A stretch of 64,000 nt of DNA from Branchiostoma floridae. Its lineage: Eukaryota; Chordata; Leptocardii; Amphioxiformes; Branchiostomatidae. Below, piece after piece: positions 59,496-60,118 of this stretch. Below the pieces are notes generated by a model that made no database searches, was not told the origin of the DNA, and saw only the letters and a list, made by a program, of their open reading frames with translations. A program made the position numbers and the translations under genes. The DNA is taken from assembly GCF_000003815.2 (NCBI RefSeq), contig NC_049985.1, forward strand, positions 23,625,406-23,689,405. The letters run 5' to 3'. Every line of letters starts with the position of its first letter. The first letter of the stretch is position 1.

Positions 59496-59693
59496 CTAAG
59501 GATGTCCTCTGCAGCGGTACAGTGTGGTCTTGGTCCGGGTTCTGGAGTGTACGTGAAGTTGAGAGAGGTGGGGTAGATGACGCCATCGTTCCTGACTAGC
59601 GAGATCGGAACCTGGATGGGCTGTCTCACCCAGCGCCATCCTTCCCTGAAGGCCGAGATGTCAGGCACTACGCATAACATGTTCTCTCCACAT
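59496..59693 (-). CDS. RBPJ: RBPJ/CSL, exon with the end of the C-terminal domain
   Basis: Reads [65 protein letters not shown], nearly identical to the corresponding part of animal RBPJ/Su(H). This is the Rel-homology-like C-terminal domain, which contacts Notch intracellular domain and co-repressors in the nucleus. It is entered at CATTACAG|ATG, where the first base completes an Arg codon, and leaves at CTTAG|GTAAGC. The acceptor and first ~33 bases are also the unit of the minisatellite immediately upstream. The true acceptor here is the weakest-looking of the series, with an interrupted pyrimidine tract (GATTTCTACATTACAG). Confidence 0.93.
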
Positions 59694-60118
59694 CTGTAAT
59701 GTAGAAATCACACATGTCAGGCACTACACACAACATGTTCTCTCCACATCTGTAATGTAGTAATCACACACATGTCAGGCACTACACACAACATGTTCTC
59801 TCCACATCTGTAATGTAGTAATCACACACGTGTCAGGCACTACACACAACATGTTCTCTCCACATCTGTAATGTAGTAATCACACACATGTCAGGCACTA
59901 CACACATGTCAGGCACTACACACAACATGTTCTCTCCACATCTGTAATGTAGAAATCACACACGTGTCAAGCACTACACACATGTCAGGCACTACACACA
60001 ACATGTTCTCTCCACATCTGTAATGTAGAAATCACACACATGTCAGGCACTACACACAGAAACTACACACATGTCAGGCACTACACACAACATGTTCTCT
60101 CCACATCTGGAAACAAGA
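59690..60118 (-). repeat. 58-76-bp minisatellite made of RBPJ splice acceptor plus exon start
   Basis: Seven ACATCTG junctions, counting the real one, lie at about 59690, 59746, 59804, 59862, 59938, 60014 and 60103. On the minus strand each unit gives CAG|ATGTGGAGAGAACATGTT, then GTGTAGTGCCTGACA and a TGTGTGATTACTACATTACAG spacer. Most steps are 56-58 bp; two are 76, through an 18-bp internal duplication, and one is 89. The outermost copy has the best acceptor context (CTTTATCTTGTTTCCAG). Confidence 0.92.

Follow-up and report, generated by a model that had tools for sequence, protein, structure and literature searches.

A tandem array of duplicated splice acceptors at an intron-exon boundary of RBPJ in the amphioxus Branchiostoma floridae

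Results

The stretch of DNA analysed here, called the window below, comprises 64,000 nucleotides (nt) of the Branchiostoma floridae genome (contig NC_049985.1, positions 23,625,406 to 23,689,405; all positions given are those of the window) and carries exons of RBPJ, a gene of the Notch pathway, on its minus strand, with a tandem array of duplicated splice acceptors at one of the intron-exon boundaries of this gene. Joining the two coding exons that flank the array gives 101 residues, of which 85 are identical to an RBPJ chain in the PDB, and the joined protein matches the Pfam family TIG_SUH, confirming the gene assignment made in an earlier reading of this DNA by letters and open reading frames (the sequence-only reading). 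A tblastn search of the window and adjoining sequence, using a vertebrate RBPJ core as the query, returned nine minus-strand exon stretches, arranged in the expected order between 68004 and 59495, with two of the array copies described below appearing as additional weak matches.

The junction CAG/ATGTGGAGAGAACATG occurs at this boundary as seven exact copies on the minus strand, with the first exon base at 60106, 60017, 59941, 59865, 59807, 59749 and 59693, the last of these being the authentic acceptor. The sequence-only reading had placed the array correctly and had also counted seven junctions, although it set all seven in front of the real exon and yet spoke of six decoys; there are six decoys followed by the authentic junction. 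The 19-mer CAGATGTGGAGAGAACATG likewise has seven exact matches on the minus strand of the window, where no eighth copy was found with up to three mismatches allowed, and a chance origin of the array was rejected, as none of 100 shuffles gave this pattern. A search of the genome with 227 bases of the array (one assembly of 513,431,437 bases, in which counts are lower bounds) gave two matches, both inside this same array. Past the first acceptor, each unit holds the beginning of the exon, a branch-like CYTGAC motif, a run of pyrimidines, and an AG. The earlier description of a minisatellite made from a splice acceptor and the start of its exon is supported. The exon sequence common to the copies measures 35–36 nt, not the ~33 nt first proposed, and two sites, the same in all six decoys, set them apart from the authentic exon, each by a synonymous transition. 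The units and flanking exons are listed in Table 1.

Table 1. Units of the acceptor array and neighboring RBPJ exons
Feature	Positions	Strand	Remarks
Upstream RBPJ coding exon, 104 nt	60598..60701	-	Donor CAG/GTTAGT at 60597
Decoy unit 1, 89 nt	60018..60106	-	Outermost acceptor tttatcttgtttccag in front; contains nested duplications of 31 and 18 nt
Decoy unit 2, 76 nt	59942..60017	-	Two 18-nt modules
Decoy unit 3, 76 nt	59866..59941	-	Two 18-nt modules
Decoy unit 4, 58 nt	59808..59865	-	
Decoy unit 5, 58 nt	59750..59807	-	
Decoy unit 6, 56 nt	59694..59749	-	Exon-derived CCTGAC at -24, a likely branch site by its motif; ends in authentic acceptor atttctacattacag
Authentic RBPJ exon, 198 nt	59496..59693	-	Frame open only from 59693; donor-like TAG/GTAAGC at end
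Putative next and last coding exon	58569..58662	-	Acceptor gtttgtcccag; open frame to TAA ending at 58569

Splice signals were scored with a simple acceptor and donor matrix. The outermost acceptor at 60106 scored 11.47, the highest of the seven, in agreement with the earlier claim that this copy has the best pyrimidine tract, while 60017, 59941, and the authentic 59693 all scored 8.06 and 59865, 59807, and 59749 scored 5.94. The authentic acceptor had been described as the weaker one, and this holds against the outermost copy, but it equals two of the decoys and beats the remaining three. All six decoys retain the CAG. A yTnAy branch motif lies at -26 from the five inner decoy acceptors and at -24 from the authentic one, reading CCTGAC (CTTGAC in one copy); its source is the Pro-Asp codons of the exon itself. 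Within 60 nt of the outermost acceptor there is a single yTnAy motif, at -13. Each inner unit therefore looks like a complete acceptor in which the exon part of one unit would offer a branch motif to the next, and we infer from the motif that these may serve as branch sites. From the donor at 60597 to the end of the exon the sequence holds 68 AGs, including one outside the array at 60210 in the same intron, which has a strong pyrimidine tract, scores 10.04, and is a cryptic acceptor that RBPJ must also ignore. Among donors, TAG/GTAAGC at 59496 scored 9.62 and the upstream exon donor at 60597 scored 8.46, while the GTs inside the decoys are weak, the best being CAT/GTGTGT at 5.88.

When each acceptor was joined directly to the upstream exon, the RBPJ frame stayed open only for 59693. 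All six decoys gave 11 shared residues, followed by 9 to 24 more and then a stop, so that the early stop predicted for every decoy was found, with a shared stretch one residue short of the 12 proposed. These stops lie 172–547 nt upstream of the donor-like site at 59496, and direct use of a decoy truncates the reading frame, as the sequence-only reading had it. A stop well upstream of a later exon junction is the geometry that targets a transcript for nonsense-mediated decay (NMD), and if the 59496 donor is used, the decoy stops have this geometry. Under that condition, decay of a decoy messenger RNA (mRNA) would be likelier than a stable truncated RBPJ.

The end of the gene bears on this point. 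An in-frame TAA (AGG TAA) overlaps the donor-like TAG/GTAAGC at 59496 (59490–59500), such that unspliced RBPJ would end in ILR, and an AATAAA is present downstream at 58929; the 198-nt exon could therefore be terminal. A putative tenth and last exon of 94 nt at 58662–58569, to which an open frame and splice signals point, would add 30 residues in frame before a TAA; its acceptor scores 8.53 and its G+C content of 0.64 is matched by 21 of 1995 nearby 93-nt windows, some of which overlap the exon. RBPJ could thus end at the 59496 TAA or in the exon at 58662. We think that the 59496 donor-like site is used.

The anatomy of the units records part of the history of the array. Each has a head of 17 nt, followed by one or two 18-nt modules resembling TGTGTAGTGCCTGACATG and then a TGTGTGATTTCTACATTACAG-type tail, giving nested periods of 18, 31, 58, and 76 nt, with the 31-nt duplication in unit 1. 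The six inner acceptor tails agree with one another at 20–21 of 21 positions, and the outermost tail agrees with them at 9–10 of 21. This pattern suggests that the array has been homogenized internally, with its borders (the outermost tail and the two sites of the authentic exon) left out, and the outermost acceptor is plausibly the ancestral one. As to the origin of the inner tail, 46 of 500 shuffles did as well as its best local match in the upstream intron, and the window outside the array held no copy with up to three mismatches allowed. Since 12 of 34 possible transitions are synonymous, the finding that both differences between decoy and authentic exons are synonymous is weak evidence on the order of events.

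The same genome was surveyed for duplications at other coding boundaries, using 33 loci that comprised all 9 matches of a globin exon search and all 24 nuclear-receptor ligand-binding matches returned, with none dropped, and counting any tandem duplication (shift of at most 600 nt) that overlaps a coding match and passes its end. Such duplications were present at seven of the 33 loci (L007, L011, L023, L025, L029, L032, and L033). Locus L011, with acceptor-side unit shifts of 150, 155, and 158 nt, fits the published globin mirage BflGb6 (150–160 bp, PMC3087553), and L007, with a donor-side duplication of 157 nt, fits BflGb9 (157 bp, PMC3087553). These two loci serve as positive controls and mark the genome as that of an amphioxus. 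The AG or GT is kept in the displayed copies at five of the seven loci and lost in L023 and in the single displayed L033 copy. Of 66 match ends, 7 were touched by such a duplication (within 12 nt), compared to 59 of 990 random flank points (P 0.10 and 0.18); the sample is small, the random points come from the same set of 33 loci, and a match end is only an approximation of an exon end. Enrichment at exon ends over background was thus not significant, and boundary duplications are common at these loci, neither clearly enriched nor depleted, which suggests that tandem duplication does not generally spare exon ends.

Two of the nuclear-receptor loci carry donor-side arrays. In L029 (G000:C156, ~1636–1772 of the reverse complement), four 34-nt tandem copies hold the exon end and the donor GCCATCGAG/GTAAGG, each with an identical GAG/GTAAGG, a donor-side counterpart of the RBPJ array. 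In L032 (G000:C12, 1571–2435), ~130-nt tandem copies of the exon end and donor keep ACAG/GTGAGTG in both displayed copies.

Other features were noted in the window. Within the RBPJ intron upstream of the 60701 exon, an inverted repeat at 60897–61212 has 144-nt arms (78% complementary) and a 28-nt spacer; a second, at 58140–58399, with 74-nt arms (92% complementary) and a 112-nt spacer, lies downstream of the putative final coding exon, perhaps within the 3′ untranslated region. A 33-bp minisatellite at 42092–42248 was considered as a further boundary array and rejected by eye, as it is intronic, beginning ~20 nt past the donor of a ligand-gated ion channel gene, and holds no exon sequence. On the minus strand at 47488–47610, a 5S ribosomal RNA-like sequence (Rfam RF00001, 43.1 bits) may be a gene, a pseudogene, or a 5S-derived repeat. 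Two separate arrays at 45456–45679 and 55306–55382 have in common a 20-nt unit of partly palindromic sequence, GTGTGGAAACTCCACACATC together with its complement, in rotated form.

Discussion

The RBPJ array is most likely a further example of the class of amphioxus arrays known as mirages, reported for Adh3, globins, TnC, and PGBD5. Mirages in B. floridae globins are described in PMC3087553, which cites earlier Adh3 reports, and similar tandem repeats in PGBD5 are described in PMC3902484, which cites the TnC case; a search aimed at amphioxus mirages listed these two papers alone, and no array in amphioxus RBPJ was found in literature searches, as judged by the titles and abstract openings listed. 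As in that class, the repeated unit in RBPJ spans the boundary, the authentic junction stands at the exon-side end with the gene intact, splice signals are retained, the interior is homogenized with divergent borders, and the genome is that of a cephalochordate. In the published mirages, many copies, though not all, retain splice signals. Among the closest likenesses is that to BflGb6 (PMC3087553), where the 3′ end of the intron and the 5′ part of the exon are also duplicated in tandem, acceptor copies precede the authentic one, and the interior is homogenized with divergent borders, the cluster boundaries having been reported as excluded from homogenization. It differs in its unit of about 150–160 bp, compared to 56–89 nt in RBPJ, and in being a globin gene with reported reverse-transcription polymerase chain reaction (RT-PCR) support for regular splicing. 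In size, RBPJ is nearer to the Adh3 mirages, with units of 10–72 bp spanning exon-intron boundaries, which are reported not to disturb splicing and to show somatic length instability (via PMC3087553 and PMC3902484). The PGBD5 repeats (PMC3902484), of 60 and 108 bp, also overlap splice sites in a B. floridae gene and differ in copy number between genome versions; unlike the RBPJ array, which is on the acceptor side, they are described as imperfect and as adjoining the 5′ splice sites of exon 3 and intron 4.

We consider it probable that the array is such a mirage, a tolerated minisatellite that arose by repeated tandem duplication over the 3′ end of the RBPJ intron and the first ~36 nt of the exon. 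The spliceosome would mostly join the donor at 60597 to the last acceptor, 59693, removing the six decoys as intron, and exon definition, acting across the short stretch of 198 nt to the donor downstream, would help to pick that acceptor. Occasional use of a decoy would give an extended exon and an early stop, and the product would be cleared by NMD if the 59496 donor is used. Duplication of a boundary always leaves one normal junction, which can be read directly at this locus, and selection against the array would therefore be weak; together with the general process of tandem duplication in this genome, this could let the array persist. Data on Adh3, and RT-PCR of globins by the authors of PMC3087553, suggest that these mirages leave regular splicing undisturbed (PMC3087553).

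Several points weigh against this account. The outermost decoy outscores the authentic acceptor (11.47 against 8.06 with the simple matrix), and the authentic acceptor has the lowest score of the nine in RBPJ (the others 8.53–12.25), where exon starts were placed at the AG beside each tblastn match and the nine become eight if 58662 is not an exon. A first-AG or strongest-site rule would pick a decoy, and we infer the choice of 59693 from the reading frame and from published cases. The NMD step hinges on the 59496 donor, without whose splicing RBPJ would end at ILR, before the in-frame TAA, with the AATAAA at 58929 downstream; this TAA lowers our confidence in the account as a whole and places a truncated protein among the alternatives. 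Some acceptor-GT pairs inside the array keep the RBPJ frame open on paper, as taken up below, and another intact copy of RBPJ may exist elsewhere in the genome.

One alternative is unproductive splicing that depends on copy number, in which the decoys, mainly the outermost, send a sizeable share of RBPJ to NMD and the length of the array sets the dose. The six decoy acceptors with the top score in the outermost, the weakest of the RBPJ acceptors at the authentic site, and the position of every decoy stop ahead of the 59496 donor all agree with it. We nevertheless regard it as unlikely, as the AG at 60210, outside the array, indicates that strong-looking unused AGs are ordinary in this intron, the rate of such arrays is not significantly different from background duplication, and the 198-nt exon may be terminal. 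An array acting as a heritable Notch dial, with a copy-number-dependent share of RBPJ diverted to decay or to truncated protein, is more doubtful still, and the earlier suggestion that array length tunes Notch output is unsupported; if such a dial did exist, germline or somatic changes in array length would alter RBPJ dose between individuals or cells.

There is a slim chance that the assembly is in error, the true copy number being different or the array being a mis-assembled mix of two haplotypes. PGBD5 repeat numbers differ between two genome versions (2 vs 7 and 3 vs 6, PMC3902484), and the description of a published supplementary file treats the assembly of the draft BflGb6 mirage as aberrant. 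The ordered length and point differences among the RBPJ units are, however, not given by simple duplication of reads, and new sequencing confirmed the PGBD5 repeats (PMC3902484). An intermediate of intron gain, in which a decoy acceptor and an internal GT are used as a micro-exon that adds residues in frame, is very improbable; of 163 acceptor-GT pairs, 25 leave RBPJ with an open, unshifted frame, one of them inserting CGENML through 18 extra nt, and such a route was proposed by the authors of the globin study (PMC3087553), but the decoy GTs are weak beside the 8.46 and 9.62 of the exon donors and the site falls in a highly conserved part of the protein. Least probable of all, with next to no weight in our assessment, is a stable decoy mRNA (59496 being read through or the exon terminal) that yields an RBPJ broken off midway through the C-terminal domain and possibly dominant-negative, which the in-frame TAA over the donor and the AATAAA would fit, while the donor at 59496 outscores the upstream one, an open, GC-rich exon with an acceptor comes next, and the product, lacking roughly half of the TIG_SUH stretch, may not fold.

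The array offers a natural experiment in acceptor choice, as the spliceosome meets near-identical sites in a developmental gene that is conserved; the inner tails are at most 1 of 21 bases apart and have branch-like motifs of their own, with the strongest-looking site the furthest from the exon. Gene prediction and assembly can go wrong at boundary arrays of this kind. Should the picture from the survey hold genome-wide, exon boundaries in this amphioxus would tolerate tandem duplication because one normal junction is always left.
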